A stretch of 64,000 nt of DNA, from the NCBI GenBank assembly GCA_021234155.1, contig JAJEKV010000002.1:21355726-21419725 (forward strand), written 5' to 3'. Shown in pieces: positions 9,843-52,127 of this stretch; positions within the stretch are counted from its first letter, which is position 1, and each line of letters opens with the position of its first letter. The notes below the pieces were generated by a model that ran no database searches, had not been told where the DNA came from, and worked only from the letters and a program-made list of their open reading frames with translations. The position numbers were made by a program, and so were the translations under genes. This DNA is from Isoetes taiwanensis (Eukaryota; Streptophyta; Lycopodiopsida; Isoetales; Isoetaceae).

Positions 9843-9846
9843 TACG

Positions 9847-29889: not shown

Positions 29890-30172
29890 GGGCGCCCGTA
29901 TATCTACAACGGGATACGGTTTATCCGGACATTTTTTCGGTGGTTTTTCTGGACATCCCATCGCCCCCCATCCCATGTAGCCATCCGCCCATCCATGCGC
30001 CCGCGATGGCCATCCGCTTGGGCATCCATGACCCCATCCCGGTGATTTATCCGGACAGGCAAGACCGTTAATCATTACTGCTCCTACTGACACAAGACCA
30101 TAGTACCACGGGCTCACAAGCATTAAATGCCCTGTTCCATCCCAAAAGAAAGCCCGTTGCCCGTTCCCCGCC
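29890..30172 (+). repeat. Left terminal inverted repeat of the giant MULE
   Basis: 29890-30125 aligns in reverse to 51894-52127 with few differences. Weaker similarity continues (CCCAAAAGAAAGCCCGTTGCC) to about 30172, opposite a right copy enlarged by about 90 bp. Three copies of the motif GGTTTATCCGGACA or variants occur at 29918, 29942 and 30041. The same motif makes up the internal arrays. Confidence 0.9.
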
Positions 30173-30273
30173 CCCGGAAATGCGTTCCCGCAGAATTCCC
30201 GTTCCATCCCCAATTCGGACTCGCCCGCCAAAGCTTCAACTCCGGCTCCCGGAGGGATTGGTGAAGCGCTTCG

Positions 30274-32993
30274 ATGATGGAGGAGCATTGTGGCTTCTTT
30301 GGTGTCGACCCAGGTGCAACAGAGGTAGGTATCGTTTGTTTTGAAGCTCTGTTTTGACAGAATAGCAGAGTTGTTGAATCAGCCGGCTGCATGTTTCAGA
30401 GGCTCAAGCTCGTGGACCTGCAGCATCCTCCACCCGGTCCCTTCTCTAAAGCCGATCTGAATTGGAGAATTGAGAAGCTGTTGAAGCCCATTCCAAACGT
30501 GGCTCCAGTCGATGATGAAGTGGTCACCGATAGCGGGCAGCAGACCCAATGTGTCCATACTTGCTACATTCCCAGCAACAGGGCAGCTGATTTCATAATC
30601 GGAGAGGAGAATTGTGATGGCACAAACACCAACTTCTACAAGAGGTCTTCAAACTGCAGAAAACTGGGGGATCTTAAGAGGAAGGTGGACGAAAATGTGC
30701 ACCTCAGCACCACCATGTCATTGTTATCCAGTTATCCGATGTATTTTCTTCTTTTAATGCATTTATTTGTTTAGTTTCTGCTTTGCATTTTGAGATTGAC
30801 ATAAACTGTGGACGGAATTGGGGGTGGGGGAATTGGGGCTATGGTTTTACAGCTACTGGTGTGCCTATGGTCCAAAGGACCTCCGGGGCAATACCCGAAA
30901 GGTGCTCGACAAAACACGGAAGGCTTTGGTGGCTGAAGCTAAGAGATTGGATCCATCACAATCCAAGACGTTCAGGGGACCCAACATTAAGCACGGGTGC
31001 ATGTGCCACTTTCAATTGAAGCAATTATACTTGAGGCCAGAGTGGACAAAGATAACTTTTTATGAGATGAAGCATATCTATTCGCAAGGGCAGGCATGCC
31101 ATGGAGGGGAAGACCCAAATTGCGAGAAAACCAGGTTCAATGTGGCCCCCTGGCTATCTAAGAAGAAGAAGCTTTGGGCAAGGAATTTGCTGCATCAGAG
31201 CCACACTTTCCAACAGGTCATGACAAAGCACGAGGAGGAATGGGCCATGCAGAGGAGAATGAACCATTCTGAAGTGAAAACCCGTGATCATATTCTTGAT
31301 ATGGATGATCTGTACAATATCTCTCGCAAACTTGCTAGAGACACTTGGCTGCTACATCCAAATGTTCCAGAGAGCATTAGGTTGTGGGTTTCTCTACACC
31401 AAGAGTGTGTATTCTTGTATCAAGAAGGCAGACCATTCACTTTAGGTATTATCACTCCATTCCAAATGAAGATTCTGTTGGAACATGGTAAAGGCAATGC
31501 TGTTGCTATGGATTCAACCTTCAAGACCAATGACCATTGCTATAGTTTATATACCTTGCTAATTTTTGACAGTCATGGGAATGGTGTGCCAATTGCATGG
31601 GTTATGACTTCTAGTCAGGAATCAGAAGAAATTCGGCCATGGCTCACAGCTATGAAAGAACACATTCACAAGTTGGATCCAGCTTGGACACCCTCATGCT
31701 TCATTGTGGATGATGCGAAGGCTGAAATTAAGGCTTTGTAGGAAGTATGGTCCATTCAGCAATCCAGTTGTGCCTGTGGCACGTTAGGAGGAATTGGTTG
31801 AAGATGTTAGTGAAGCGAGTCAAGGACAAGAAAGTGAGGGCTGAAATGTTCAAGGAGTTGGGGCACATTATGTATGGCACTCACATCGAGGGTGATGGTA
31901 GACTTCGGGAGGCATACTTGGAATCTTGTCGTGTAGAAGGCTTGAGACTCCTCGAAGAGTTCAAGCAAAAATATAAGAGATACAAGAAGGTTGTGTCCTA
32001 CATGGACAAGGTTTGGACCAAAAACATCTCCTTCTGGATTACAGCCACTAGAGTTTATCCTCATGCAAACCAGGAAACTAATCTGGGGCAGAGTCCTATC
32101 ATTTCCATATGAAGAAAAGGCTTGGGCTTTCCAAGCATGCACTGAGAGGGAGGCGGCTTGATTGGCTGTTGTACATGTTGGTGAATCAATTAGAAACACA
32201 TATGTCATATGACCGGTTTAAGAAGGAACATGGCTTCAAATTTAACCGCAAACAAGAACATATTGTTGAGACAACTATTATTGGTGCACGTGGCATTCCT
32301 GACACGGCAATTAGATGGCTGGATTACAAGGCAGGCACGGCTGAGGTATGGAGCCAGAACATGGATGCATGGGACAAGAACACAGAATCAGTACCTTACT
32401 TGGTGGTGGTTGCCAATGAGAATTGGTCATGCTGTGACTGTCCTTGGGGTATCAAAGGTAACATGTGTAAACGCCAAGTGAAGGTTCTTCGTATGATGTC
32501 CAACTACAAGGAGGAGGACATCTTAAGGGTTTGTGGAACCCTCTTTGGCTCACAAGGTGGCGGTTTAGCTAACTTGATAACCATGGCCGAAGCTTACATT
32601 GAGGAAGACGGGTGCTTTGATGCTCCCGATGGGAATCAACAGGATTCCGAGGATTATGGTAGGGATGTTGATGAGGAAGAGGTTCCATCAACTCAAGCTA
32701 AGCTGCAGGAAAGTATAGAGGCCAGCCTTGTACATATCAGGGACACTATTTCCAGCAGTCCCACCATTGCAAGAGAGGCCGATTTCTTGCTTAGGGAGCT
32801 AGGTGGACAACTACAACATTTGCTGCTAAGCACCATTGCGATTGGCCCAGCTCCTACCATGGCAATGGTTTGTGACTTCAATGGCAACACTATTGCAAGG
32901 CCAATACCATTCATAGAGGGTCGCAAGCGAAAGAAGAGGGTTCTTGGTGAGACAGTCTTTGCACGTGAATGCCATCACCATCTTCTAGAGTGA
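30274..32993 (+). pseudogene. MULE transposase with SWIM finger, frameshifted
   Basis: A first exon probably starts at 30274 (MMEEHCGFF) with a donor near 30325. An N-terminal exon (30391 onward, KLVDLQHPPPGPFSK) is followed by a main exon from about 30853 after the acceptor TTTTACAG, opening YWCAYGPKDLR. The MULE DDE core shows AMDSTFKTNDHCYSLYTLL (first Asp, about 31509) and CFIVDDAKAEI (second Asp, about 31708), then LCLWHVRRNW. Two single-base frameshifts break it, near 31738 (also TAG) and near 32080 in a G-run before ESYHFHMKK. The third segment has RGRRLDWLLYML and a SWIM-type finger CCDCPWGIKGNMCKR (about 32430) in which the final His is Arg. Its job would be excision and insertion of the element by binding the termini. 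Exon borders upstream of 30853 are uncertain. Confidence 0.85.
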
Positions 32994-33170
32994 TGGATGG
33001 TTTAGGGTTTCTTATCACATATCATGGGTATAAATACCATGTCTACCACCTCCGTTTTAATATCGTGGTCGAGGGAATGAAGAGAAATTCCAAATGGTTT
33101 CGACCCTCCCACCTCCTTTGGCAAGATTTTCCAACCTCTTCGCGATTCCTTGGTCTTTCCGGATGAGTGA

Positions 33171-34347
33171 ATGTCTACCCCTATGGTTTATCTGGACACA
33201 AAGTTGGTGGCTTATCTGGACACAAAGTAGTGGTTTATCTGGACAATGTATGAGTATGGCTTGGATTGACATACCATAGGTATAAATACACCAAGTATTC
33301 ATACCCTTAGTATTTATACTCAACTCCAATGTCTACCCCATTGGTTTATCTGGACACATGTTGGTGGTTTATCTGGACACAAAGAAGTGGTTTATTTGGA
33401 CAATGTATGAATAGGGTTTCTAATCACATACCATGGATATAAATACACCAAGTATTTATACCTTGAGTATTTATACCCAATTCCAATGTCTACCCCTATG
33501 GTTTATCTGGACACATGTTGGTGGTTTATCTGGACACAAAGTAGTGGTTTATCTGGACAATGTATGAGTATGGCTTGGATTCACATACCATAGGTATAAA
33601 TACACCAAGTATTCATACCCTTAGTATTTATACTCAACTCCAATGTCTACCCCATTGGTTTATCTGGACACATGATGGTGGTTTATCTGGACACAAAGAA
33701 GTGGTTCATCTGGACAATGTAGGAATAGGGCTTCTAATCACATACCATGGGTATAAATACACCAAGTATTTATACCTTGAGTATTTATACCCAATTCCAA
33801 TGTCTACCCCTATGGTTTATCTGGACACATGTTGGTGGTTTATCTGGACACAAAGTAGTGGTTTATCTGGACAATGTAGGAATAGGGTTTCTAATCACAT
33901 ACCATGGGTATCAATACACCAAGTATTCATACCGCTTAGTATTTATACTCAACTCCAATGTCTACCCCTATGGTTTATCTGGACACATGTTGGTGGTTTA
34001 TCTGGACACAAAGTAGTGGTTTATCTGGACAATGTAGGAATAGGGTTTCTAATCACATACCATGGGTATAAATACACCAAGTATTTATACCTTGAGTATT
34101 TGTACCCAATTCCAATGTCTACCCCTATGGTTTATCTGGACACAAAGTTAGTGGTTTATCTGGACACAAAGAAGTGGTTTATCTTGACAATGTAGGAATA
34201 GGGTTTCTAATCACATACCATGGGTATAAATACACCAAGTATTCATACCCTTAGTATTTATACTCAACTTCAATGTCTACCCCATTGGTTTATCTGGACA
34301 CATGATGGTGGTTTATCTGGACACAAAGAAGTGGTTTATCTGGACAT
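33171..34347 (+). repeat. Satellite array, plus orientation, about 158-bp units
   Basis: The landmark AATGTCTACCCC recurs at about 33171, 33327, 33486, 33643, 33799, 33958, 34117 and 34277, a period of 156-160 bp. Each unit has three GGTTTATCTGGACA motifs (24 counted, a few with one mismatch) followed by AGTATTTATAC/GTATAAATAC blocks able to form a hairpin. The motif is close to that in the terminal repeats. Long open frames across this array are by-products of the repeat and are not genes. Confidence 0.9.
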
Positions 34348-34349
34348 AC

Positions 34350-34680
34350 GAAATTTTTAGGGTTAGATTGGACACGTGGTAAACCTAGACATGCATGGTT
34401 AGATTGTATACGAAATTTTTAGGGTTAGATTGGACACGTGGTTAAAAGCGTGGTTAGATTGCATACGAAATTTTTAGGTTAAAAAGGGAACAGTATCCCG
34501 ATCGATCTATTGTCAGGAAACAAGGTTTGTAAGATCCGGCTCATCCGATGGCGATAACCCGAAGCAGGTGTCGAATCCTTCGGATGTTGAAGGACTTGGC
34601 CGCTTGTGCAGGAGGTAGGCCTGCTGGATGTTGAAGGACTTGGCCGCTTGTGCAGGAGGTAGGCCTGCTGTTTCAAGGCG
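34350..34680. repeat. Two further local tandem duplications
   Basis: TACGAAATTTTTAGGGTTAGATTG-like units recur three times at about 34346-34480 (period 55-60 bp). A 46-bp unit (GATGTTGAAGGACTTGGCCG...) is duplicated exactly at about 34580-34672. Both lie between the satellite array and the mirrored gene fragment. Confidence 0.75.
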
Positions 34681-34737
34681 CAGATCATCGGCCACGAAGT
34701 CAGCACCAGTAAAGCACCAGCACTTTCCACTGATCAA

Positions 34738-34990
34738 GCCAGCACCAGCAGAGAGCCCGAACCAAAGAGGGTAAAGATTGTTCACGTTGTTAGTGACGTG
34801 TCCTCGGATGATGACTCAGAAGACTCGGCAGGATACATTGGCTATGTATTTCCCAGGCATACCATCATAGGCTGACGAAGATGCTTTTGTAGAGAAGTTT
34901 CTGTTATAAAAATGTATCATGTCTCTGTTATAAAAACGTTTCATGTTTCTTTTATAAAAAAGTTTCATGTCTACCCCATTGGTTAATCTG
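34738..34990 (+). pseudogene. Mirror copy of the 3' end of the accessory gene
   Basis: 34738-34877 is an inverted copy of 50690-50830 and encodes the same C-terminus (DSEDSAGYIGYVFPRHTIIG, stop). It is followed by CTGTTATAAAAA repeats and a partial satellite unit, mirroring the right-hand order of gene end, AACAGAAACATG repeats, then array. Only the last roughly 45 codons are present, so it cannot be functional. It shows that the two flanks of the element once shared more than the terminal repeats. Confidence 0.8.
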
Positions 34991-35100
34991 GACAAATGTT
35001 AGTGGTTTATCTGTATGGCTTGGATTGACATACCATAGGTATGAATACACCAAGTATTTATACCCTTAGTATTTATACTCAGCTTGAATGTATAACCCAT
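34970..35100 (+). repeat. Partial satellite unit
   Basis: CTACCCCATTGGTTAATCTGGACA and the GTATTTATAC blocks reappear once in plus orientation, shortened and diverged. It lies right after the mirrored gene fragment. Confidence 0.75.
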
Positions 35101-35101
35101 T

Positions 35102-35172
35102 GGTATAGGTATCGGTATAGATATAGGTATAGGTATAGGTATAGGTTTAGGTATAGGTATAGCTATATGTAG
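35102..35172. repeat. GGTATA hexamer tract
   Basis: About eleven imperfect GGTATA units (variants GGTATC, AGATATA, GGTTTA). It may have grown from the GGTATAAATAC block of the satellite. Confidence 0.8.
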
Positions 35173-35525
35173 AATTACGCTGGTATGGATATAGACAGGT
35201 GGAGATATATGATGGACGTGAGGGATACGGCACCGGCCTGTCCCCGCAGGGCTACGAGTAGTCATCACTACCTACATTAGATCCATCATTACCTATCTGT
35301 GATGTGACTCTCCTACTCCAGAAATTAATTGCATTTGAACATTCCCGAGCGCCTTTCCCGCTCCCTGAAGCGCACAAAGGTTCACTCGTCGGAGAGGAAC
35401 CTTTAGTTCTGTGCCTGCCATGGCGCCCGATATGGGCCATCAAGGGCAGACTATGCGAGGAGCTCGCGGGGTTCAGTCAATGTTAGTCAGGTAATATTGG
35501 CCTGTCTTACGGATTCCATGCGTTC

Positions 35526-35798
35526 TTGCTGCTGATTCATGTTGTTATGCTGCAGGCCTCACGGGACGCTTCCTGGACGGCTGTCGTTAATCGCATGAAG
35601 CACTCCATCGAATGCATCATTTGCAAGGAGAGATGGTTTAACAACGTGATGACCGTAAGGAGGAATGTCGTATTTGCAGACCAGAAGCTTATGTTCAAGC
35701 TGTTCAGGTATCATCTTTTCCGTGACTTCGAATGTTACAAATGCGAAGTCAAATCGGATGCCGAGATGGATGGGTTCTGGAGTTCATCACAGAGGTGA
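35526..35798 (+). CDS. Small ORF with paired Cys-x2-Cys, unrecognised
   Basis: This 90-codon frame has IECIICKERWFNNV and, 45 residues later, CYKCEVKSDAEM, two CxxC pairs that could form a zinc ribbon. It may instead be an internal exon: a TGCAG precedes GCCTCACGG near 35553. It is inside the giant MULE and on the opposite strand to the Ulp1 gene. I cannot name it, and the start is uncertain. Confidence 0.35.
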   Translation: MLLIHVVMLQASRDASWTAVVNRMKHSIECIICKERWFNNVMTVRRNVVFADQKLMFKLFRYHLFRDFECYKCEVKSDAEMDGFWSSSQR

Positions 35799-35929
35799 AC
35801 GAGTTAACAGTTTTGTTTAGTTCTAGTACAGTATGTACAATTGTACAGTTTTTGGCACTTTGTATGTTTCTTGGGAAACAGTAGCACCGCTCTCGATAAG
35901 CCATGTGCATTTTTCAAATTTGTTGGTAA

Positions 35930-36420
35930 CATGGTATAAAAACCTTGTTATAATTTGTGCATTCAAGTACTTATAAGTTATACAATCCGTATAGGCACCT
36001 TGGTATAATTTACTCATGGAAGCACCTATAGATAAGATATACAAACCGTCTCCTTGTATAATTTAATCATATAAGCACGTAAATGCTATACAAACCGTAT
36101 AGGAGCCTTCGTATAATCTAATCATAGGCGAACTTATATGTTATACAAACCGTAGAGGAGCCTTGTTATAATGTATTCCTAGAAGCACTTGTATTTATTT
36201 GACACAGACCGTAACAAACTTGGTATAACTTATTCATGGAAGCACATGTTATACGGACCGTATAAATACTACTCTTATCAATGCATTTGGTGCAAGTTTT
36301 TCTGGACATGGTTTATCTGGACAAATGTCCTTGGCTTATCATGTTATACAGATCGTATAAATACTATTCTTTTCAATGCGTATGGTACAAGTTTATCAGG
36401 ATATGGTTTATCTGGAAACT
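35930..36420 (+). repeat. Degenerate tandem repeat, about 62-66 bp units
   Basis: The pattern TGGTATAATTTAYTCATRGAAGCAC...TTATACARACCGTATA recurs about seven times with drift. The right end includes three more GGTTTATCTGGACA-type motifs (about 36300-36420) in plus orientation, the last ones before orientation flips. Confidence 0.75.
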
Positions 36421-36710
36421 TGTCCTTGGGCTATCTACACAAATTTAGAATTTAAGCATCCACCATGCATAATAATCCGATACATCTACTTACTAGAAGT
36501 TTCGAAAAATAAGAAACAGCTTGTGTCAAACAAGGCCAATCATATATTTCATAAAGAAAGGCTCTGCCAATCATACACATTTCACCAAAAAGGCTGTGCC
36601 AATCATATGCCACTAAAAAAGCCTGTGCAAATTATAACTGTGCAAGCAGTTTCATATTCATGTTCAGCATCATCCAATATTGATTCAGTAAAATAAAAAA
36701 AGGGGTCTGT
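36421..36710. other. Non-coding spacer
   Basis: Short repeats (GGCTCTGCCAATCATA / GGCTGTGCCAATCATA at 36560-36610) are visible. No gene is supported. Confidence 0.5.
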
Positions 36711-37531
36711 TCAAGTACTGTCTGGTGTCACCAGGCCTTGGTGCAGCTTCCCTAGCATGAAGCAGAAGCTTTTCCTGCAATTTGCGACCGCCACTCGATT
36801 GAACCGTTTCCTGTTAATCTACAACACATAAAATAACCCGGGAATGAAAACCACCGAAATCACAGGTGATGGAGAAGACAACAATAGGATTGCAGGTATT
36901 TACGTGGGGGTATGCCTCATCTGCACTCTTTAAAATGAAATCGTGAATGAACCACTTCGCATACAATATGGTGTAAATACCACAATCTGAGCCGTTGTCC
37001 TGTTCTGGACATTCTAGCATCAGAACTGGACATCCGTACCACTCAGGAATGTTCTCATTCCATGATTGATGGATTTTTTTCAATAATCTGCCAGAATGCG
37101 AGAGAGGAACACTGTCACTGCTAAGGGAGACCATGGAAAATGACAGTAAAGAATACTTACCCTCTGGCGGTCGTTTCAGCAGTGTTATGGTAGCCTCGCA
37201 CGCAATCAAAATGTAGCAGACAGGGAGTGGGCGCTCCAAGTGCCTGGCAGATGCCATGGTGGTAACAGAATATGTAGAGACTCTAATGCGATCTGCAAGG
37301 CAATCCGATTTGAGGTGACCGGAGAAAAAAACCATGAACACATACAGGGAATAAAAGTTCTCACCCGTGGCACACAGGCATCCAGTAAAAGAGAATTTCC
37401 TCCATAGCATCCCTGACTGCACCCTTTTTCTTCACCGGGCCCTTAATTCTAGGCGAGGGTGTGGGAGCAATTTCGGCCACAGGTGTTCTGCCTTTTCCAG
37501 AAACAGACCTAGGAGGGCGGGATGAATCCAT
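36711..37531 (-). pseudogene. Ulp1-like SUMO protease (C48) carried by the MULE, one nonsense codon
   Basis: Four exons fit GT-AG rules and keep phase: 37531-37365, 37292-37161, 37117-36904 and 36818-36711, about 206 codons. Conserved C48 features are a CHGSH segment (catalytic His, codon just before 37285), LLHFDCVRGYH (catalytic Asp) and ECPEQDNGSDCGIYTILYAKWF (catalytic Gln and Cys). The codon after the His is TAG (37283-37285) where this family has Trp, a probable TGG to TAG change. Otherwise the frame is open to the stop at 36711. Ulp1 enzymes process SUMO and remove it from targets. MULEs with Ulp1-like genes are known in plants (Kaonashi-type). Start at 37531 is the first ATG after an in-frame stop. 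Confidence 0.8.
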
Positions 37532-37599
37532 TGGTGCTCGCTACCGGAATGGCATGTGATAAAACCCTGAAATAGAAATAACCATCAGCCACAGAAGAC

Positions 37600-40272
37600 A
37601 CAAAATCCATTGCGGGCATGAGCTTACAGGAGATAACAGCCCACAGACTCCTCATTGATCCAAGACTCCCGCATCCTTTCAGGAACATCTGTCCTGTTAC
37701 GCTCGAAGCAAATTGCCTGTTCTCGCTCGACAACGAATTCGCCCATCTTCACAGAACCCCAAGCCCACAACCTGCTTTTTACATGCACGGGCCACTGGCA
37801 ATTGTAAGACAGAACCATATTTTTAGCACTTTTTTTTTTCACTTTCTGGTAGACCAGTTGAGATTGTACAGATCCTCGATTTTCTGCAAGAACTCAATAG
37901 GCAGGAAATAATCTAAAGGTAGGGAGAGCATAGTTCTGGTCTTCGAAGGAGATATGTTCATAAATTTTGTCTTATCCTGCGGCCCAAGCTCTGGCCAGGG
38001 TATTTTTTAAGCGCTCTATATTTTTATAGGGCCAGAAACAACTGGCTACTGCCCACGTAGAATAAATAACTTGGCGTAGTTTGGCCTGGCGATATTTTGC
38101 ACCTTCTTGCTAAGATGGCATTTATAACTGAACTGGCGCAACTATGAAATTTTTATTTTGCTACATTAACAAATTGGCTACGAGCAAATTTGTGTTAGTT
38201 AAGATAGGAACATGCTTTGGTAGTGAAAACACGACGTTGGCCACAACCACCTAGGCATCTTCCCCAAATAATACATTCAAATTGCTTTGGGTCATAGTCC
38301 TTATCATCTGCAAATTCATAGCCTTCATCAAGACCCTCAATTTGGCCTATGACGTAGATGATGATATAGTGATGCGCCGTTTTGTCCTTGATGCCGCAAG
38401 TCCCAAGAACTCATTTATTCTCTTTTGTGAAGCTCCGTCCATGCTGCATAAATTTGATGATTGGCATCAACAATTACTTTTGCACATCTGAATAATTTTG
38501 CACAACTGAATAGGGTAAAAACTAACCTGAATTGATGAAGCTAAAGCTTAGATTGTAGATGGGAATGGATCTCCATCTCAACCAAATCGTGAATACAAAT
38601 CGGGAATGCTCTGCAAATGACAATAAAATATAACATTAAAATTATCATCCCATTCATATTCAGAGACTAACATCCCACTCATATTTATATTCACATGAAT
38701 AATGAAACAATTGCATATGAGAAGAACAGGAAAAACACAGGCTAGACAGGGTAGAATAAATTAAACCTGGATAAAAGGGCGGTTTCTGATGCTAGCTCGG
38801 TCAAATTAAAAAATATATATGAAACTTTAATCCTAGAGGACTATAAGTGGCGATTCTTAGATGGACATGTGGTCGAGATGTAATATGGCCACCCCCTTAC
38901 GCTTTAAAATTTACCTTAGGTTCTAATTGGCTACCTCGATAAGTTTTTTTCCACGTACAAAAAATCAAATTGGCCACACCCTACGCCGAGCCGGATTTAG
39001 TAAATATCGAATTGGCTACTAAACGAGTAAAATGTACAAATTCGTGTTTTGAACTGGCCACTACCCTTCGGTCAGGGCATGAACGTATCCTACTCTGACG
39101 TAGCCAACCATTTCTGAAAAAATATGAATGTGTGGCCAACTGGCCCGCCGGGGCCACTAAAAAATACCCTGGCTCTGGCATGGCAGAGAAGTCCGGCATG
39201 GGAGAGATGCCCAGTTCATCCCGCACTGCAGACATCTTGGCCTTTCACGGGTGCGCCATCAGAAGCCAACGACAGCGTGGACGTCAGACTTGCAAGCTTC
39301 GATCTAGGTGTCTCCGCATCTGCTTTCTGGTGCTCCGCTGCTGGGGATTTCTGGGGCTCCACATCTGATTTTTGGGCCTCTGCACCGGGTCGTGCACAGT
39401 TTAGGATGTCCCTGTTTAGATCCGCCTTCACGGAGTCTACACTCTCCAACCACAATTCCTCTGGTGTGCCCTCCAATCCATACCCAGCCTCAATATTTCG
39501 TTTGTACTGTGCAACCTTGATTTCTTTCTTGGCCTCCCACTCGGCAAACCTCCGAGCTACATATTCGTTAGCATAATCCGCCACAACGGCTTCTGCCTCA
39601 TCTTCATCTACAATCCCCGAGCTGGCTACATGAGCCTTGGCGATTTCCTCGGCATTGGCTCTGCACCTTTTCAACAACCGCCTCAAATTTACTTTATATC
39701 TGTATTCAGGGTTGAGGGCATATCGCATCTGGTACTGATACAGGTCCCTCCCTTCTCGCCTCTTCTGTTTGACTTTCTCCTGCCTCCTTCTCCCTACCGG
39801 AGCCCGCTCAACCTGTACTGCCAGACCGTGTTCATCCTTCAAATGCTTCTGTCGCTTCCTCTTCACTGTGTCCCAAACACACCCGGAACCAAACAACAAT
39901 GCTTGGTCTTCTTCAAACTGTAATAGTAGCCCATCAAATAATGCCTCTCATCTATTTCGGAATCATCATCCGAGAAGGCAGCCATGACCTTTGGCGGTAA
40001 GGACACACCCGTGCTCGGGTTGTCTTTTTCTTGCCTCACCGATTTCTTGATGTCTCGGAGACTTAGAGGGTGCAGAATTGTGATAGGTGGCTCTTGAACA
40101 ACGCGCGCATAAGCGAATCATTGCCCAGCCTCGGTGATCTCCTCGTGTTGGGCATGTATTCCTCGTCGAGACTTGAATCCGGTAGAGAGGTATGTCCCGG
40201 GGCTCTCGGATAAGCTTCCTCCATTTTGGTTCCGTTCCACGGCTCCTCGCTTAGAGGCGGCACTCCACGCAC
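37600..40272 (-). pseudogene. Decayed unknown gene of the giant MULE, interrupted by an hAT element
   Basis: Minus-strand frames in order: 40272-40063 (EEPWNGTKMEEAYPRAPG ... NTRRSPRLGNDSLMRA), then VVQEPPITILHPLSLRDIKK and KVMAAFSDDDSEIDERHYL down to about 39920, then 39899-39216 (HLKDEHGLAVQVERAPVGRR, basic; YQMRYALNPEYRYKVNLRRL; a helical Ala/Glu-rich region), then RDELGISPMPDFSAMPEL. Joining 39180 to 37987 across the hAT insertion continues open for about 50 codons. A last block (37840-37640) has WPVHVKSRLWAWGSV and FERNRTDVPERMRESW. At least three frame changes separate the blocks; some could be unrecognised introns. I do not recognise the family. It lies directly upstream of, and parallel to, the Ulp1 gene. 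Confidence 0.6.
37996..39171. mobile_element. Non-autonomous hAT element
   Basis: Terminal inverted repeat CAGGGTATTTTTTA (left) and TAAAAAATACCCTG (right) with an exact 8-bp duplication GCTCTGGC (37988-37995 and 39172-39179), as expected for hAT. It is 1,176 bp with no transposase. Many TTGGCTAC/TTGGCCAC motifs (for example near 38058, 38170, 38240, 38928, 38970, 39013, 39055) resemble subterminal transposase-binding repeats. It interrupts the unknown MULE gene. Confidence 0.9.
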
Positions 40273-41275: not shown

Positions 41276-41334
41276 TCTTTCTTTATACTAAAAGGATTTT
41301 GAGTGTTTGTCATCAATTTTCATTTTGAGCCGTC

Positions 41335-41465: not shown

Positions 41466-41867
41466 GGTGGAGGGGATTATCACCATCGATTTGATAATCT
41501 CCTCAATCTCAGCCGTGGACTTGATAATCACTCAGGAGCAATGGATTATCAGAAATAACCTCTGCTGCCAAGATGCCGATTTAAGGGTGGAGATTGTTGC
41601 GATCAAGATAATCCACGACACCAGATGTTTAAGATCGAAGATATTTGGGCAGGGCGCCCAATCAACAACTGCTTTTGGGAAAGTTTTTCATCGTACATTT
41701 TGTTTTGTTTGGGAGCCATTCTGTGCAGTCTTTTCTCCATCTCTGCCGTTCGAGATGCGTGTTTTGCTTAAGCTTGTCTAGAGGACGTTCCCTTGTTAAC
41801 CTGTTTGGTGATCTTTCACAGCAATCCTGAGTGCTTGGGAATCCCCTTATCAATCGGTTGAGGCCCA

Positions 41868-43910
41868 GTGCATAATAACTTAAATTACATGTGTTTGGGG
41901 ATAAATTCTGCTACCTATGCCCTTTTGCTCAGGAACTGTGGCAACGAACAGGAGCTACTTGAGGGTACATGCCCGAATACTAACAGATGGTTTTGGAGAA
42001 GAGCGGTATCTGCCCTGGGGAATCTGCTTATTGAAATGTTATGCTCTGATCTGATCTATAAAAAAAAGAAAGAGGAAGGGGAGGGATTTTTTTGCCGGAT
42101 TGGAGCAGAGGGGGTCAGACATTTTTTCACGAATAAGGTGAGGGTTTTTTAATCTTCTATTTTTCTCATGCTTTTGTTCTTACCATTTTGTGCTCCAGTT
42201 ATTTCTGCTTTCGACTCCATCTGTGCTTGAACCATCTATTAGCTTCTTAGATCAACATTCTTTTTCTTTTTTCTTCTGACTTTTCTGACCTGCAGCCACC
42301 GGATTTCTCAGTTCTTAAGCAAAATATTTTGCACAAGCGGCCAATACTTTGATGAAGTGCATATGTGTCTCCTCCTCTGGAATTGGGACGGTTTAGGTGA
42401 GATGGGACCACAAGTGATTGAGTCTATAATGCCGCATCTCATCTCTCCGATTGCATGGCTGAAACGTAAGCATCCTTTTTCTTCTTTCTTTCTTTTTTGT
42501 ATTTGCATGTCTACAAATTTTTAGTTCTGAGAGCTCAATTGTTCATCTGCCCCAGATCTTGATGGGCTCTCAAACTTGCAAGCATTCTGTTGATAACGAA
42601 GAAGCTGGTATTAGGTCTGTTTTGCAGAAACCAGACAGAGTCACGGTGAACCCATCCAATGTTATTCAATTCTCATGGAAGCCTAGGTAATGTTCTTTGG
42701 ATGTTGGATATTTACTAATCTATATACAATATACAAGCCTTATTTTGTGGGCGGGCAGAGACAGACAGGGATGTGGATGTGCACATAGATGTTTAACAAA
42801 CCTGCCTACAGATCTCACCCCGTCCCTGCAAAGGTACAAATCCTGGCAACTGCAAATGTTTTAGAACCTTCATTATCCTTGTTGTTTGTTCACCCAATTA
42901 TCATTCTGCTTCTGTATATTCAATACCATTGCTAAAGCTGTTACATATTTCTTCACTGAGCTGTTCAGAATCTCTAAAGATCCAATGCCCCTGGAAACAA
43001 TGCTATTTCTACAATATACAGTGTCCAGGTAAGTCTAAATGTGACACAAAGTTATGCCATTGGGAAGAGACAATGTAGGCCGAGATAGCAATGTTCAAAT
43101 AGGATATGGTCTTTGTATGATTGGTAATGAATTGGTTAAAGCCAGGTTGCCTGGAAAAGAATCAGGTCAAAATACCAGAAAAGGCAATTGGAAGGGTCTT
43201 CACTCTGTTTCTCTATGGAGGACTTGAAACCTGTAACAAAGGGAGAATAGGACTTGATCCCATGTTACATTTGTTTACAGCAGCTAATCGATTTCTAATT
43301 GAGTTCTCTGAATATTTGTGCACGCTGCTGAAGTTTCAATAATCTAGCTAAAATTCTGGCCTTCATCCTTTACGCGATAGGCACTTGCCGATTTGGCACA
43401 TGCCTCCTTGAGAATTACAGCATTTTTGTGTACGGCTGCACCATAAGTAGCATGAATCCCAATTTGCTTATTCTTCTATCCCAAGTTGTGTCAGTTGGCT
43501 TCAGCCTTTCATCAAGGATGTAAATTGTTGGCTTTAGGTACTTTCAAAGACATCCTTCCAGTGCACTATGATTTTCTTCATTTAGATGTCAATCAACTGC
43601 AAACACCATGTCTGCTATGTCTTTATGTTTGGCCCCATGCTCATAATTATGGCTTTAATTTGCTGGGTGCAGGTGGACATTAGATGTGGTTTAGCTATTG
43701 ATGTGCTAACTGGCCTATTGGAAAATGGAGAACTAGGACGTTAATTCTTTGTCCTGTTTAATTGGCTAAGTCGTTAAGACTCAAACATGTAAACATTATG
43801 TTTGCTATTTGCTTTGCAGTTCAGTGTATACAAGCAAATAAGAAACTATATGCAGTCACAGAGGAAGATTGAAAAAGAGGAAGATTGAAAAACTGACGTA
43901 AGTAACATAT
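41868..43910 (+). other. Exon-like fragments inside the Helitron, possible gene capture
   Basis: Open pieces with splice-like borders include 41900-42050 (TYALLLRNCGNEQELLEGTC, reminiscent of a pentatricopeptide repeat helix pair but too short to assign), 42561-42687 (KHSVDNEEAGIRSVLQKPD and NPSNVIQFSWKPR before a GTAATG donor), and 43840-43900. None is complete. Helitrons commonly carry such host fragments, but the source genes are not recognised. Confidence 0.35.
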
Positions 43911-44784
43911 ATCTCTTATCTTTTATGGAAATTTATCAAAATCATGTCACGATTCAGAGCAGCTAAGGGGAAAAGACATCCCAATGCTAATGAAGATCAG
44001 TTTATTTTATGTTCCACCTTGACTTTTACATCCATGGTCTTCTTTTTGATCCATTTAATGAATTTGTATTATAATGTATTGTAGTGCTTTTGCTTCCTAT
44101 AAGGAGTTATTTGACACGTTGCTGCTTTGTGTGGATGCCTTGCAAATTCTTCGAACTCTCAGCAAGTTCTCGTGCATTTAGGACTGTTAATTGGGTCATC
44201 TCCTACACAAAAGAAAGACCATGATCTGCTTTAGCTTCTCAATTACTGGATTGCAACAAAAGTTAAAGGAGTATTCTACTATATTTCAGTCGGTGCTAAT
44301 GTGATATTAAAGTGTCTTTGGTTATTATCTTCCAATTGTCTGCTCTATCTAACAGATGTACATGGACCCAAAATGATCCAAAGGCCAAGTCATAAATTTT
44401 AGCAAAGAAACTCTGAGTTCCCTTACCATCAAAGGTTTTGAGCAACATTATCGAACCTCAAAAGGTTTTTGAGCCTTATATCCGTATGCTGGATAGAAGT
44501 TTGATTATCATTCTCATTCTGTGTATTCATATGATTTTCAACCTGCATTGTGTAAATGTAATGGTAGTTCCAAAGCTTGTTGTTTGGGGACTCTATTTTG
44601 TTCAAGTTTCCATTTTGATTAAGAACAGGGCATCACGCTTTCTTCCAGGCTCTATTCTGGGACTGTAATTTCTACAAAACAGAGTTGGCCATGAATGTAG
44701 TCGATCTAGGTACAAGTGACCTCCTGATAATGCCTAACCACACTATGCATGTCATATATTTCTTCACGTGTGATGATTAGTGCT

Positions 44785-45790
44785 AATGTTGGCATCGTTG
44801 CCATGCAATGTTGGCATCATTGACAACTTGATTATGTCTTTTGCATTATGGCAGTATGAAGTTCTAAGGCTGGTGTGCCTTTTGCACTATGATGTCCATC
44901 TGAAGGATGAAGTTCTAAGGTTGGTTCTAAATGGTGAGCATGCAAGGTTCAAACCTTCATCACTAAAAATTTGCATTAAATAATTTTGTGATTTTATAAT
45001 GAAAGTACAAAAGTACATGCATATGCCAAGACTTCAACTCAACTTGCAATCAAGCAGTAAGCTTGTCGGCCCTAGGCTTCGGTCAGGGTTCATGGAGGCT
45101 TGTTGCATTACATATAGTTTGGCTGCATTCATGCAATGTTGGCATCATTGACAACTTGATTATGTCTTTTGCATTATGGCAGTATGAAGTTCTAAGGATG
45201 GTGTGCCTTTTGTACTATCATGTCCATCCGAAGGATGAAGTTCTAAGGTTGGTGTACATTAGGATGCAAAAGTTATTTGATATATGGTGAGCATGCAAGG
45301 TTCAAACCTTCATCACTAAAAATTTGCATTAAATAATTTTGTGATTTTATAATGAAAGTACAAAAGTACATGCATATGCCAAGACTTCAACTCAACTTGC
45401 AATCAAGCAATGCTTTTGTCGGCCCTAGGCTTCCTGGGGGGGTTCATGGAGGCTTCTTTGCATTACATACAGTTTGGCTGCATTGCCCTTAGCAAAATTC
45501 AAATTATGTTGACCTAGAGTCCATAGTTTGGTGGCTAGGGGCATGTAGCCATTCTGTCAATTTGAATTTTGGATACGCTTTTGGAACCCTCATCACTAAA
45601 AGTTTGCATTAAATAATTTTGTGATTTTATAATGCAAGTACAGACATATGCCAAGACTTCATCTCAACTTGCAATCAAGCAGTAAGCTTGTTGACCCTAG
45701 GCTTCGGTTGGGGTTAATGGAGGCTTGTTGTGTTACATACAGTTTGGCTGCATTGCTCTTACCAAATTCAAACTGTATTGACCTACGGTC
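44785..45790 (+). repeat. Diverged tandem repeat, about 350-bp unit
   Basis: The blocks from about 44800, 45131 and 45575 share ATTGACAACTTGATTATGTC, GAAGGATGAAGTTCTAAGG, CATCACTAAAAATTTGCATT and CTTGCAATCAAGCA. The third copy is partial. It lies inside the Helitron upstream of the helicase frame. Confidence 0.8.
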
Positions 45791-46022
45791 CATAGTTTTG
45801 TGCTGCTGGGGGCATGTAGCCATTTTGTCAGATTGCTTTGAATTTTGAATACGCTTTTGGAGAGTTGAAGTGGTTATTCTCTCAAAAGTTGACGGTGCTT
45901 GCTTCTATAAGGTCTCTTGCAAGTTTTGTGAAGAAGGAATTACAATAACCTTTAACTTTTCCATTGTCAAAAGCTTTAGGGACTTCTAGAAATTAAGTTA
46001 GCAGTGCCCATGTATCGCTCAA

Positions 46023-47710
46023 ATGAATTGTGCGTTCAAAGAAGCTGCAAAAGAAGCTGGCCTGCTCCTTGATGACCGTGAATGGGAACTAGGGCTTGAG
46101 GAGGCAGCTAGCTACCAAATGCCATCACAGCTCCGACAGATGTTTGCATTCATATGTGTATACAATGAGCCCTATGATCCATTAGCACTATGGCAAAAAT
46201 TCAAGCAAGACCTATGTGAGGATTACATTAGACAAATGCCACAAATATTAGCAGAAAATAAAGCACTTGCTGACATCAACCAGATTTTAGAAGCAAATAA
46301 CATGTCTTGTCAAAACATTGGTCTACCAACTCCTAATCCTTGTTTAGAATTCTTTGATGATGCTATGACAATTGACATTGAGCAAGAGTGTATTGAAGCA
46401 ACAGAGCAATACAAAAAGCTAAACAGTGAGCAACTACAAATTGTAAACATCATCGTACAACTTGTACAGAACCCTACAAGAAGCAACAAATGCCACAACA
46501 TCGATGGACCAGGTGGTACAGGAAAAACTTTCTCCTTGAACACGCTCATAAGAATACTGAGATCGATGAACCAAGGAGTTGTCACAGTAGCTTGGACAGG
46601 CATAGCAAGCCTCTTATTAAAGGGTGCACGAACTGTGCACTCAACTTTTAAATTGCCTCTTAGTCTCCACCCAGAATCAACATCCGCTTTGCGACCAGTT
46701 AGCCGAGAAGCAGACTTGCTTCGTAAAGCAAAAGTTCTAATATGGGATGAAATAGGAATGACTCATACAGATGCTTTTACAGCAGTGGATAAAGTTTTGA
46801 AGGAGATAAGGCAAAATGAGGAGCCATTTGGTGGCATCATAGTGGTTGCTGCAAGAGACTTTAGGCAATTGCTACCTGTTGTCAAGAGAGCAAGCAAAGC
46901 ACAGATAATTTCAAAGTGTGTGAAGAAGAACCCCTTATGGACGCAATTTACTTTCCACAAGCTCATACAAAACATGCGTGTAGCACCACATGAAAGGAGC
47001 TGGTCAGCGTACCTATTGCGTCTAGGAAATGGCGAGATCATGAATGATGACGGCCTTGCAAATAATATAGTACATATTCCACGTGGTTGTATCGCTCAAA
47101 ATGATATCATTGATGAAATATATGGTACATACATATCACAAGAACAATTTCCAATTATGCACAAAAAGGCAATACTCTGCCCAAAAAATGATGACACATT
47201 GCGAATTAACGACATCGTCATCGAGCGCATGGAAGGAGAAAAAGTTATCTACACAAGCATTGATGCTTTCAATTTGGATGATGACCGTGATGAGTTAAGG
47301 GACTTTCCCATTGAATGCCTACACAAGCTTACGGAGTCTGGCATGCATCCTCACGAGCTACACATAAAAAAAGGAGCAATCATCATGTTGTTGCGCAACT
47401 TGTCCCCAAAGGATGGCCTGTGCAATGGAACGAGATTGCAAGTTGATAATGCTTTAACACACTCCATATATGCACATATAATTACAGGAAGTCATAAAGG
47501 GAAACAAGTATTTTTGCCAAGGATAAACTTGACACCATCGACGCGAAATACCATACGCAAGGCGCCGGGTTCCTATTAGAGTTGCATTTTCAATGACAAT
47601 TTCAAGTCGCAAGGGCAATCGTTAGATCGCTGGTCGGAATCTACTTTACGCATGCCAGTCTTTTCACACGGGCAACTATATGTCGCACTATCCGGTGCAC
47701 ATCCGAGAGC
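46023..47710 (+). pseudogene. Helitron PIF1-like helicase, 5'-truncated with premature stop
   Basis: An open frame of 518 codons (46023-47579). The N-terminal part (EAAKEAGLLLDDREWELGLE, QLRQMFAFICVYNEPYDPLALW) matches the linker preceding the helicase in Helitron RepHel proteins. Walker A is GPGGTGKTFSLN (about residue 162), Walker B is VLIWDEIGM, and later motifs include DFRQLLPVVKR. After TAG at 47577 a shifted frame still reads FNDNFKSQGQSLDRWSE and MPVFSHGQLYVALSG, the last helicase motifs, so the 3' end is broken. The Rep nuclease (HUH) domain normally upstream is absent. It would unwind DNA during rolling-circle transposition. Confidence 0.85.
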
Positions 47711-48469
47711 GGCATTAGAATGTGTGTAGAAAATACAAGCAAGCAAGGGAAATTGATTTGGAAATGAAGAGACCTACACCCTAAAACAACGCCTATAAGG
47801 AGGTGCTTCAAGATGAGATTGCATAGCTTGAAAGAGTAAGCACTATCTACCAACTTAACATTGTTTATTTGATTTACTAAATGATTATGAAAATGACACA
47901 GGTACATATGGACTCTCATCTAGAAGCATCAAGCTCTAAAAATATTGAACGAAACGACGACTCACCATCAGTAAGCACCTAACCAACAATCAAATAAACA
48001 ACTTATAAATATGCAGGAACCATTGTAAATGTCATTTTGATAAATACGCACGAACCATTGCAAATGTCATTTTGTAGGAACATGTGGTTGTCAAAATACC
48101 GACCTGTACAAAATATTCGACAATAATTGTTAGTACTGATCATAGTTGAAAGTATGCAACATGCTATAACAAGGTTCCGACAGAAGCTACACTCTCCAAA
48201 GAGTTGAACTAACGATAAAGAGAAGTAGATATGTCATCCTTACACAAGAGCATGTAAAATCTATGATGAAATCCAATGTGGTTATGAATGACATACAATT
48301 GCTACAAATATTTGCATTCATTCCAAATTTTACTTTATGAAATCATCATTTCATACATATGTTTCTCTTAGCAAATGGATAAGACTAAATTTTACAGCAT
48401 ATCATGACAAAGATGCCTTGTAGACAAACAATTCCCTTATCGCCCAGCAACGCTGGGCACTTTTTCTAG

Positions 48470-50580
48470 TAAATACTAAGGGTATAAATACTTGGTGTAT
48501 TTATACCCATGGTATGTGATTCCAAGCCATACTCATACATTGTCCAGATAAACCAATAGTTTGTGTCCAGATAAACCAATAGTTTGTGTCCAGATAAACC
48601 AATGGGGTAAACATTGGAATTGAGTATAAATACTAAGGGTATAAATACTTTGTATATTTATACCCATGGTATGTGATTCGAAGCCCTATTCATACATTGT
48701 CCAGATAAACCACTAGTTTGTGTCCAGATAAACCAATAATTTGTGCCCAGATAAACCATGGGGGTGGACAATGGAATTGGGTATAAATACTAAGGGTATA
48801 AATACTATTTATACCCATGGTATGTCATTCCAAGCCATACTCATACATTGTCCAGATAAACCAATAGTTTGTGTCCAGATAAACCAATAGTTTGTGTCCA
48901 GATAAACCAATAGTTTGTGTCTAGATAAACCATTGGGGTGGACAATGGAATTGGGTATAAATATTAAGGGTATAAATACTTGGTGTATTTATACTCATGG
49001 TATGTGATTCCAAGCCATACTCATACATTGTCCAGATAAACCACTAGTTTGTGTCCAGATAAACCAATAGTTTGTGTCCAGATAAACCAATGGGGTAGAC
49101 ATTGGAATTGAGTATAAATACTAAGGGTATAAATACTTGGTGTATTTATACCCATGGTATGTGATTCGAAGCCCTATTCATACATTGTCCAGATAAACCA
49201 CTAGTTTGTGTCCAGATAAACCAATGGGGTAGACATTGGAATTGAGTATAAATACTAAGGGTATAAATACTTGGTGTATTTATACCCATGGTATGTGATT
49301 CAAAGCCATACTCATACATTGTCCAGATAAACCAATAGTTTGTGTCCAGATAAACCAATGGGGTAGACATTGGAATTGAGTATAAATACTAAGGGTATAC
49401 ATACTTTGTGTATTTATACCCATGGTATGTGATTCGAAGCCCTATTCATACATTGTCCAGATAAACCACTAGTTTGTGTCCAGATAAACCAATAGTTTGT
49501 GTCCAGATAAACCATGGGGGTGGACAATGGAATTGGGTATAAATACTAAGGGTATAAATACTTGGTGTATTTATACCCATGGTATGTCATTCAAGCCATA
49601 CTCATACATTGTCGGATAAACCAATAGTTTGTGTCCAGATAAACCAATAGTTTGTGTCCAGATAAACCATGGGGGTGGACAATGGAATTGGGTATAAATA
49701 CTAAGAGTATAAATACTTGGTGTATTTATACCCATGGTATGTCATTCCAAGCCATACTCATACATTGTCCAGATAAACCAATAGTTTGTGTCCAGATAAA
49801 CCAATAGTTTGTGTCCAGATAAACCATTGGGGTGGACAATGGAATTGGGTTTAAATACTAAGGGTATAAATACTTGGTGTATTTATACCCATGGTATGTG
49901 ATTCCAAGCCATACTCATACATTGTCCAGATAAACCACTAGTTTGTGTCCAGATAAACCAATAGTTTGTGTCCAGATAAACCAATGGGGTAGACATTGGA
50001 ATTGAGTATAAATACTAAGGGTATAAATACTTGGTGTATTTATACCCATGGTATGTGATTCCAAGCCTATTCATGCATTGTCCAGATAAACCACTAGTTT
50101 GTGTCCAGATAAACCAATAGTTTGTGTCCAGATAAACCATTGGGGTGGACAATGGAATTGGGTATAAATACTAAGGGTATAAATACTTGGTGTATTTATA
50201 CCCATGGTATGTGATTCCAAGCCATACTCATAAATTGTCGGATAAACCAATAGTTTGTGTCCAGATAAACCACTAGTTTGTGTCCAGATAAACCAATAGT
50301 TTGTGTCCAGATAAACCAATGGGGTAGACATTGGAATTGAGTATAAATACTAAGGTTATAAATACTTTGTATATTTATACCCATGGTATGTGATTCGAAG
50401 CCCTATTCATACATTGTCCAGATAAACCAATAGTTTGTGTCCAGATAAACCAATAGTTTGTGTCCAGATAAACCATTGGGGTGGACAATGGAATTGGGTT
50501 TAAATACTAAGGGTATAAATACTTGGTGTATTTATACCCATGGTATGTGATTCCAAGCCATACTCATAAATTGTCTGGGT
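48470..50580 (-). repeat. Satellite array, minus orientation, right of Helitron
   Basis: About thirteen units, 126-176 bp apart, marked by GACAATGGAATTGGGTAT or GACATTGGAATTGAGTAT. Each has two to four TGTCCAGATAAACC motifs and the GGGTATAAATAC / GTATTTATACCC hairpin block. It continues the 40566-41275 array. Units alternate between two sequence types, suggesting higher-order amplification. Confidence 0.9.
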
Positions 50581-50587
50581 TAACCAT

Positions 50588-50683
50588 TATAAACTTTTTT
50601 ATAACAGAAACATGAGATTTTTTTATAACAGAAACATGGAACTTTTTTATAACAGAAACATGAGACTTTTTTATAACAGAAAC
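50588..50683. repeat. 24-bp tandem repeat after the accessory gene
   Basis: TTTTTTATAACAGAAACATG with small variations occurs four times immediately 3' of the accessory gene stop. A mirror version lies at about 34893-34970. Confidence 0.85.
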
Positions 50684-50684
50684 G

Positions 50685-51416
50685 TCAGCCTATGATGGTA
50701 TGCCTAGGAAATGCATGGCCAATGTATCCTGCCGAGTCTTCTGAGTCATCATCCGAGGACATGTCACTAACAACGTGAACATTCTTTACCCTCTTTGGTT
50801 CGGGGTCTCTGCTGGTGCTGGTGCTCTCTGAATCAACATCAAGCACTGTTGCCATGCCTTCTGCCCGGACGTCCTCAACAGTTACATCTGGCACACCGCA
50901 TGGTAGTCTCCACATCATGTCATCGAAGAAATCGCATAGGGTTGGATCAGACCCCTCTAGGACTTCCCTGATCAGAACCTTCTTTCGCTGCCTCCGTGCA
51001 GCATACATTTCCTCGAAGCAGGCTTTTAGGGTGTTGCTTTCCCAGACAACGTCCGTAACTAGCAAATACTTCAAAGCCTTGCCCTGGATAATAGACCTCT
51101 TCAATTCAGCCAGCAATGCCCTATCGGTTGGCCTGTTAAGGTCAGTGTTGAGAGGCTTAGGAGTCTCTCTGAATTCCCCATTCTCCACGGTCTCTGCATG
51201 AACCATGAGGGGATCATGAAAAGATTAATATGAAAGTAGAACATGAATATGAAGGAAGACAAGAACATGCTTACTTTTGAACGTTTTGATGCTGTTAGGA
51301 TGGGCGAGATCTAGCCCCACATCCTCCTGAATTTCATTCAAGTGGACGAGAATATCCTCAAGACTGTGGGCATTGATGGCACTGCTCTCACGAAGCTGTT
51401 GTCGGGTCCTCACCAT
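50685..51416 (-). CDS. Two-exon accessory gene of the giant MULE, unknown function
   Basis: Exon 1 is 51416-51275 and exon 2 is 51193-50685. The 81-bp intron has GTAAGC and TTCATGCAG borders, and the junction keeps phase (TFK to KTVENG). The product is 216 residues: N-terminus MVRTRQQLRESSAINAHSLE, a helical, charged middle (ELKRSIIQGKALKYLLVTD, EEMYAARRQRKKVLIREVLE), DDMMWRLPCGVPDVTVEDVR, and an acidic Ser/Asp-rich tail (MSSDDDSEDSAGYIGH). No known domain is recognised. It is the only protein gene in the element without visible damage, has a TATA-like sequence upstream, and lies between the right terminal repeat and the satellite. By position it recalls accessory genes such as mudrB or VANDAL vanC, but no homology to either is claimed. 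Confidence 0.75.
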
Positions 51417-51507
51417 CTGTCACTTGGCTTGAACAGTAAGCAAAGGAACTCGACTGCTACTGAACTCAACTGCAACCAACTAACTTTCTACCAAGAACAA
51501 CTAAGGC

Positions 51508-51520
51508 AAGGGTATATATA
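51508..51520 (-). promoter_or_regulatory. Likely TATA box of the accessory gene
   Basis: The minus strand reads AAGCTATATATACCCT about 95-105 bases upstream of the ATG at 51416, a good position and sequence for a TATA box. Confidence 0.55.
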
Positions 51521-51755
51521 GCTTGAAGGCTAGAAAGAACCGTTAGAAAGAACCGTTGGTTTAAATATTCCCTTCTATGCTTGTCCAGGTTAACCACTAG
51601 AGTGGGTGTATTGAAGTAGCTTTGAAATTCAAATACAACGTTCTTTTGATATTTAAATTCACATCGGGAAGGGATTAGTTTTGAAAATGAAATAAATGGC
51701 AATTATTGATTATTTAAATTGAAATGGGGAGGGGAAGTACAACGGAACAACGTTT

Positions 51756-52127
51756 TGGGGGCAGGAACGGTCGGGCGCGCGGATCCGGAACGGGGCAACG
51801 GGCTTTCTTTTGGGACGCCATGAAATCTTAGGAAAACCTTTGTGAAAAGCGTACAAAAACACAAAAAAAAACCCCTGTTATTATGCTACATATTAATGCT
51901 TGTCAGCCCGTGGTACTCTGGTCTTGTGTCAGTAGGAGCAGTAATGATTAATGGTCTTGCCTGTCTGGATAAACCACCGGGCTGGGGTCATGGATGCCCA
52001 AGCGGATGGCCATCGCGGGCGCATGGATGGGCGGATGGCTACGGGATGGGGGGCGATGGGATGTCCGGAAAAACCACCGGAAAAATGTCCGGATAAACCG
52101 TATCCCGTTGTAGATATACGGGCACCC
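51756..52127 (-). repeat. Right terminal inverted repeat of the giant MULE
   Basis: 51894-52127 mirrors 29890-30125. 51756-51820 also matches (GGGCAACGGGCTTTCTTTTGGG), with extra sequence between the two blocks. Motif copies TGTCTGGATAAACC (51962), TGTCCGGAAAAACC (52062) and TGTCCGGATAAACC (52086) point inward. Confidence 0.9.

Follow-up and report, generated by a model that had tools for sequence, protein, structure and literature searches.

We analysed a 64,000-nucleotide stretch of the Isoetes taiwanensis genome (C1018:21355726-21419725, hereafter the window) and compared it with the rest of the same assembly, 1.66 Gb in 1110 contigs, within which all comparisons reported here were made. 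The window contains a Mutator-like element (MULE), a DNA transposon, that spans 29890-52127 (22.2 kb) and was 15.0 kb long without a Helitron that is nested in it. It is bounded by terminal inverted repeats (TIRs), the left of which (29890-30129, plus strand) starts with GGGCGCCCGTATATCTACAACGGG, and the right of which (51889-52127, minus strand) matches it over 240 bp with 95.0% identity across 241 columns, based on a self-BLAST of the window from which array-versus-array rows were left out. Directly beyond both TIRs lies an identical 9-mer, AGTTACTCC (29881-29889 and 52128-52136). The target-site duplication of a MULE is typically about 9 bp, and with a transposase domain, long TIRs and a 9-bp target duplication the window element is a MULE. 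CACTA (En/Spm) membership was rejected because the element ends in GGGCGCCCGTAT and has a 9-bp duplication, rather than CACTA termini and a 3-bp duplication.

The transposase gene (30358-32993, plus strand) is spread over several frames or exons and contains a MULE domain at 31502-31738 (Pfam PF10551 in the window frames, E 9.3e-10 and 39.3 bits, above the cut-off of 27.6) and, as read by eye, a SWIM-like cysteine pattern near 32430-32478. Searches with the window proteins (tblastn) found transposase homologues in 9 of 13 other loci and in a distant relative on contig C1066. Near the opposite end is an accessory gene (50685-51416, minus strand), for which the first-pass annotation had given a product of 216 residues; conceptual splicing of two minus-strand exons (51416-51275 and 51193-50685) upholds that length. 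Homologues of it are present in 10 of the 13 other loci as well as in C915 and C1066, and neither a family above cut-off nor a solved relative was found for the protein in Pfam and PDB searches. This second gene is convergent with the transposase gene, the position that a mudrB-related gene would have in a MuDR-type MULE. Between the two is a gene for a ULP1-like cysteine protease (36817-40335, minus strand, exon limits approximate), with a C48 match (PF02902) in frame 36817-37431 that, at E 8.3e-4 and 19.7 bits, is just under the Pfam cut-off of 20.7; frames 39219-40335 probably represent its N-terminal part. Pieces of this protein are 84-94% identical in C955 (tblastn).

Tandem arrays of a short motif, GGTTTATCYGGACA, lie behind these genes. 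The left array (33170-34346) is composed of a 157-bp unit, in 7.5 copies according to tandem repeat finder, and its motifs are all plus, as are those of a small 95-bp tandem block at 36245-36429. The right array has minus motifs throughout and consists of an inner part (40564-41275) that ends at the Helitron and an outer part (48470-50575). Both arrays begin within about 200 bp of a stop codon, that of the transposase gene on the left and that of the accessory gene on the right. Exact GGTTTATCYGGACA occurs 72 times in the window, whereas 100 dinucleotide shuffles gave none (mean 0.00), with 22 plus copies (29918-36323) followed by 50 minus copies (40585-52099). Permitting up to two mismatches gives 87 motifs, 31 plus and then 56 minus, against a chance mean of 0.92, with a single switch between 36418 and 40564. 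This bears out the first-pass annotation, which had described dozens of internal copies that are first plus and then reversed. The same annotation counted three motifs in each terminal repeat, which is correct if one mismatch is allowed but not for exact copies, of which each TIR has one: 29918 on the left, 28 bp from the end, and 52086 on the right. The one-mismatch copies are at 29942 and 30044 (52 and 154 bp from the end) and at 51962 and 52062.

Across the window element and ten related copies described below, the commonest spacing of array motifs is 23 bp (414 intervals), followed by 111 bp (99 intervals); the commonest value is close to the 24 bp between motifs in the TIR. The 157-bp unit combines 23-bp motif intervals with a 111-bp step carrying the dyad GGTATAAATAC...GTATTTATACC, which has TATA-box-like cores on both strands; the window element contains 61 exact GTATAAATAC. 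A 24-bp AT-rich tandem repeat (50593-50683, minus strand; tandem repeat finder) separates the right array from the accessory gene. An inverted partial duplicate (83%) of the accessory gene 3' end, the 24-bp repeats and the array start is found at 34739-35104 (plus strand; self-BLAST against 50821-50495), and its accessory fragment is 78% identical over 50 residues; the duplicate suggests that the two halves of the element once exchanged sequence.

The right array breaks off at 41275 and continues in the same register from 48470, which rules out two separate right arrays. Helitrons are recognized by a 5' TC, a 3' hairpin followed by CTRR, insertion between A and T, and a Rep/Helicase protein. 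The 7194-bp insert at 41276-48469 follows an A, runs from TCTTTC to GCCCAGCAACGCTGGGCACTTTTTCTAG and is followed by a T, has a hairpin and CTAG immediately before that T, and contains a PIF1 helicase frame at 46002-47576 (plus strand; Pfam E 6.7e-54). It is a Helitron, the protein hallmark being judged by the PIF1 helicase frame. Because of this insertion, seven minus motifs fall in the left half of the element, the midpoint of which (about 41010) is within the array at 40564-41275; without the 7194 bp they fall in the right half of the 15.0-kb element. The earlier wording, that every motif points inward from its nearer end, does not hold literally, and some motif departs from it in 9 of 11 TIR-paired copies. 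The actual rule is one plus-to-minus switch along the element.

Exact GGTTTATCYGGACA is found 2182 times in the genome (1115 forward, 1067 reverse) versus 26 for the reversed control. A search with the TIR pattern at up to two mismatches detected 80 ends (reversed control 0), and sequence was read at 25 of these. Ten inward-facing TIR pairs and the window element make up 11 TIR-paired copies of 6.0-26.9 kb, with arrays ranging from 41 to 121 motifs. Exactly one plus-to-minus switch is seen in all 11 (up to one mismatch), and perfect 9-bp duplications are present at 8 of the 11, with C1018b and C987 sharing one site. The flanks of these two agree, and they represent a single insertion sampled twice. 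The pair (C1018:34673241-34684968 and C987:315941-326604) is identical in flanks and duplication and differs in array length, with 14 versus 18 internal plus motifs; the two could be alleles, a duplication or a separate haplotype contig, and array length has changed recently. Inward TIR pairs 37-54 kb apart, at C907:52303526-52348933, C952:11175090-11212170, C1066:3345597-3397227 and C1066:8156301-8210255, may be giant copies or chance neighbours.

Addition of seven further loci (C15, C279, C34b, C1077, C930c, C915 and C1066) brought the set to 18, in 13 of which both TIRs were seen; elsewhere, inward refers to convergence alone or to one end. The internal motif order shows a single switch at 15 of the 18 loci, plus motifs only at two (C15 and C915), and a mixed order with 21 changes at one (C1066). 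Arrays are therefore found in related copies too, in most of them mirrored as in the window, and the random orientation that would speak against the first-pass annotation is found in part, in the distant C1066. Throughout the genome, exact motif pairs 80-110 bp apart are direct at 446 places, convergent at one (C1077) and divergent at two (both in C1066). Block order of this kind is unlikely to occur by chance, with a product of about 10^-8.7 over the 17 loci without C1066, although the copies have a common descent and a single insertion site accounts for two of them.

In loci that have both the transposase and the accessory gene, tblastn shows the two near opposite ends. The accessory gene points inward in six (window, C1083, C1075, C908b, C15 and C279), and also in C1066, and outward in five (C1018b, C987, C955, C930b and C908a). 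Accessory proteins of the outward type are 42-48% identical to that of the window, and their elements carry exactly GGTTTATCYGGACA; C908a has a second outward accessory copy at the opposite end, 35-38% identical. Array polarity is the same in both types. At C955 the internal minus motifs extend as far as 11968 and plus-strand accessory frames occupy 12101-12713, so that the relation of gene to array is opposite to that in the window. Given that the accessory gene is inverted in some copies and the arrays are unchanged, polarity follows the transposon end and not gene direction, and the outward genes led us to reject gene sense as its explanation. Between the two types the accessory ratio of nonsynonymous to synonymous substitution rates (dN/dS) is 0.13-0.41, with dS near or beyond saturation and one pair infinite; it is 0.90-1.90 within the inward type and 0.33-0.59 within the outward type, in a data set that omits C1018b, C1075, C908b and C915. 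Therefore, the accessory protein is conserved in the long term, whereas the inward copies look relaxed. For the transposase, analysed in the window, C955, C930b and C1066, dN/dS is 0.39-0.47 among the first three and pairs with C1066 are saturated. Two pieces of the ULP-like protein gave 0.54 and 0.76 between the window and C955.

Two copies, C907a (6.0 kb, 67 motifs) and C930a (6.9 kb, 69 motifs), have 9-bp duplications but no match to any window protein (tblastn, E 1e-5), and their longest stop-to-stop frames are 130 and 117 residues, respectively. Both keep the array polarity. C907a and the element on C34 have 1.3 kb of other DNA in common at 94.7% identity; therefore, the coding-free type is present in more than one place.

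A genome search with the accessory protein gave at least 236 matches (150 of 1454 candidates scored). Three loci picked from accessory matches ending at residue 171, L035-L037 (C1045:1017001-1027000, C1053:5863001-5873000 and C1056:28926001-28936000), have the same gene set as the window element and represent a second MULE family. Their accessory proteins are 91.7, 87.2 and 85.0% identical to that of the window over 133 residues, versus 34-60% for the transposase (one 16-residue piece in L035 at 69%) and 32-35% for the ULP-like protein. GGTTWATCYGGACA gave no match in L035-L037 at up to two mismatches, and L036 has one at up to three versus 2.5 expected by chance. These loci have internal tandem arrays of their own, with periods of 29-76 bp, to which L036 adds one of 173-175 bp, and their motif is the nearly palindromic TCCTCCGGGATCACC. 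The comparison of repeats within these loci covered the first six inverted and first ten direct ones of each. Among the three, only L036 had both of its terminal repeats within the sequence examined; TCCTCCGGGATCACC has 25 matches there (up to two mismatches, chance 0.01) and lies within the terminal repeats too, at 1847-1965 (plus) and 9337-9515 (minus). At the same threshold, TCCTCCGGGATCACC is absent from 17 of the 18 window-family loci and occurs once in C1083. A 22-mer form of the second-family motif occurs exactly 895 times in the genome (reversed control 0) and, by eye, lies within about 1.5 kb of 13 of the 17 listed accessory loci outside the window family (contigs up to C898). Exact GGTTTATCYGGACA is on the same contig as none of the seven of those 17 loci whose contigs the motif listing covers. 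An accessory protein that is 85-92% identical thus accompanies a different motif, and one that is 42-48% identical accompanies the same motif; the array motif therefore tracks the TIR and the transposase, and not the accessory protein. The accessory gene itself seems to have passed between MULE families.

Alignment of 228 array units showed 91% identity in motif columns versus 78% in spacer, with the motif higher in 14 of 14 loci, although the comparison leans to the motif because the consensus contains it. The alignment was anchored on the TATAAATAC module with a window-type consensus, and conservation of GGTATAAATAC...GTATTTATACC in it is consequently not independent. The element on C1066 (L030 and L034, 10.6 kb) has a transposase 61-66% identical in its main pieces and 34% in an N-terminal piece, an accessory protein at 53%, and ULP-like N-terminal pieces at 40-50%. 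Its arrays have a 26-bp period with 60 copies of the motif variant GGTTAATCTGGACA, and the TATAAATAC 27-mer dyad has no match there at up to six mismatches. In 41 of these units, picked by position alone, motif columns are 99.7% identical versus 83.7% for the linker. The arrays of the 18 loci pooled are poor in CpG, with an observed/expected ratio of 0.21 versus 0.63, and have TpG and CpA ratios of 1.34 and 1.37 versus 1.18 and 1.18. CpG poverty fits past methylation and decay equally with avoidance of methylation; as a required property of the arrays it is ruled out by C1075 (observed/expected 0.556) and by CpG in the units of the second family.

The likeliest reading, to which we give an even chance, is that the arrays are additional sites at which the transposase or end-complex of the element itself would bind. 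From the patterns described above, we infer that the arrays may derive from the element's end, be bound, act in recruitment and confer a selective benefit. A TIR motif would have been amplified into internal satellite arrays, many bound copies of which could raise the local concentration of transposase and help to pair ends that are 10-25 kb apart, and coding-free copies would compete for transposase made elsewhere. The opposed polarity could have arisen if the motif direction at an element end set that of the array belonging to it, the array having either grown out of that end or been matched to it. The arrays may also influence silencing secondarily, as VANC targets do, and the functions may overlap. 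The first-pass annotation had proposed expansion of a transposase or regulator binding site, which is supported in part: the internal arrays amplify a TIR motif, relatives have them as well, and the motif is the better conserved portion of the unit. With regard to the reader the comparison of families favours the transposase over the accessory protein.

Several observations weigh against extra transposase sites, in addition to the lean of the 228-unit comparison. Polarity may be inherited passively from a single ancestral arrangement. C1066 has a uniformly minus right array (8025-10457) but a mixed order in two zones on the left; it speaks for constraint on the motif and against strict polarity, and the second-family arrays are not mirrored, with 14 of 14 motifs plus in the two internal arrays of L037; therefore, polarity is not required in general. 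L036 has no clear target duplication by eye. The coding-free copies may be mere deletion products, and in C907a the left TIR is degraded past its terminal bases. Finally, the ULP-like protein diverges as well, and could therefore be the array reader instead.

An alternative that we consider rather unlikely is that a unit derived from the TIR multiplied through replication slippage and unequal exchange without bringing any benefit, and that polarity was merely inherited. It can be reasoned that tandem growth keeps orientation, and that recombination between inverted arrays does likewise. The wide variation in array size among the 11 copies, the mixed order in C1066 and the high dN/dS of the inward accessory type, many copies of which may be dead, are in keeping with such passive growth. 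However, the motif exceeds the spacer in conservation at every one of the 14 loci, the 26-bp unit type has only the motif in common with the 157-bp unit, the second family amplified a different motif that is found in its own TIR, and two coding-free copies retain their arrays.

It is quite unlikely that, by analogy with VANDAL elements, the arrays are anti-silencing targets to which the 216-residue accessory protein binds and from which it would remove silencing marks, as VANC does. VANC likewise targets dense same-orientation motif arrays that lie in noncoding MULE sequence and that arise and disappear as tandem repeats (PMC5735166). The accessory protein is conserved between types, the arrays of the 18 loci are CpG-poor, and coding-free copies would fit through an effect in trans. 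Nevertheless, accessory identity and motif are doubly dissociated between the two families and the two accessory types, exact GGTTTATCYGGACA accompanies none of the seven accessory loci outside the window family, the accessory protein has neither a Pfam family above cut-off nor a solved relative, and second-family units contain CpG. Anti-silencing is possible if the arrays are read by something other than the accessory protein's conserved part. The ULP1-like protein as array reader or co-regulator is improbable: it diverges along with the transposase, both in the second family and in the N-terminal pieces of C1066, but 12 of 18 loci show neither of two ULP query frames (several of these being partial or coding-free, and C1075 having a short N-terminal piece), the C48 match is under the Pfam cut-off, and no DNA-binding domain was recognized in the protein. 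Least credible, and largely refuted already, is that genes set the motif direction, the arrays being 3' tails (termination or 3' untranslated regions) of two convergent genes, as their start close to both stop codons would suggest, since in outward-gene copies such as C955 the array is 5' of the accessory gene with inward polarity kept, and coding-free copies keep polarity too.

More broadly, we tentatively propose that at least two MULE families have made a terminal recognition motif into internal satellites that would serve as "extended ends" read by the transposase. The convergent polarity of the window family might then be a directional pairing or looping device, the coding-free elements might be parasites, and the near-identical accessory gene might be a separate module passing between families. 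Motif arrays within transposons have been described in VANDAL and CACTA elements; comparison, however, rarely reveals which protein drives them. Two MULE families with a near-identical accessory protein but different transposase and TIR make it directly testable which protein the arrays follow. If the arrays are extra transposase sites, satellite birth would be linked to competition between transposons, and arrays would offer a way for very large elements to stay mobile.

Among the papers listed in a search of an open-access library, there was no direct precedent for internal satellites of a TIR motif in MULEs. The VANDAL/VANC precedent raised by the first-pass annotation is a fair functional parallel, but a search for a VANC domain was negative: DUF1985 and DUF287 had no Pfam match in 9 window frames or 8 accessory homologues, with the presence of both models in the library not checked. 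VANDAL21 and VANDAL6 of Arabidopsis have C-type and T-type motif variants, and the motif differs between related families (PMC5735166, PMC10398659). Like these, the window MULE has dense arrays of a short motif in the same orientation in noncoding parts. Unlike them, its motif is also in long TIRs, has a polarity that mirrors the ends, and tracks the transposase and TIR rather than the accessory protein. Abermu MULEs have a transposase and an opposite-strand accessory frame of variable position, and mostly 9-bp duplications (PMC9168764); the main text of that paper is without the words tandem, satellite, subterminal and Ulp1, and the likeness to the window element is by description only. In CACTA/En-Spm elements, subterminal motif arrays at both ends are read by TNPA, a large element measures 20.5 kb, and motifs diverge between families along with a poorly conserved binding protein (PMC2613891). 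However, CACTA arrays lie at most 159 and 732 bp from the ends, with CACTA termini and 3-bp duplications, unlike the window MULE. Galileo and Foldback-like elements have repeated binding sites for the transposase (THAP) in long repetitive ends, proposed to give specificity (PMC3688188), but they belong to the P-element superfamily and their arrays are part of the TIR, whereas those of the window are internal to a MULE. Muta1, Muta5 and other Aedes MULEs have 9-15 bp tandem repeats in long TIRs, mirrored by TIR location, and subterminal repeats are kept in variable number in non-autonomous copies (PMC5225508). The Aedes repeats are confined to a TIR of about 150 bp, whereas the window arrays are kilobase-sized and lie behind genes, beginning about 3.3 kb from the left end and 1.6 kb from the right end. 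Lastly, in MULEs with tandem TIRs the TIR is duplicated inside the element, which has been suggested to enhance recognition by the transposase, and MURA is reported to bind a conserved motif of about 32 bp in Mutator TIRs (as cited in PMC3310237, which also describes the tandem TIRs). Those elements duplicate whole TIRs in few copies, whereas the window element carries satellites of the motif.

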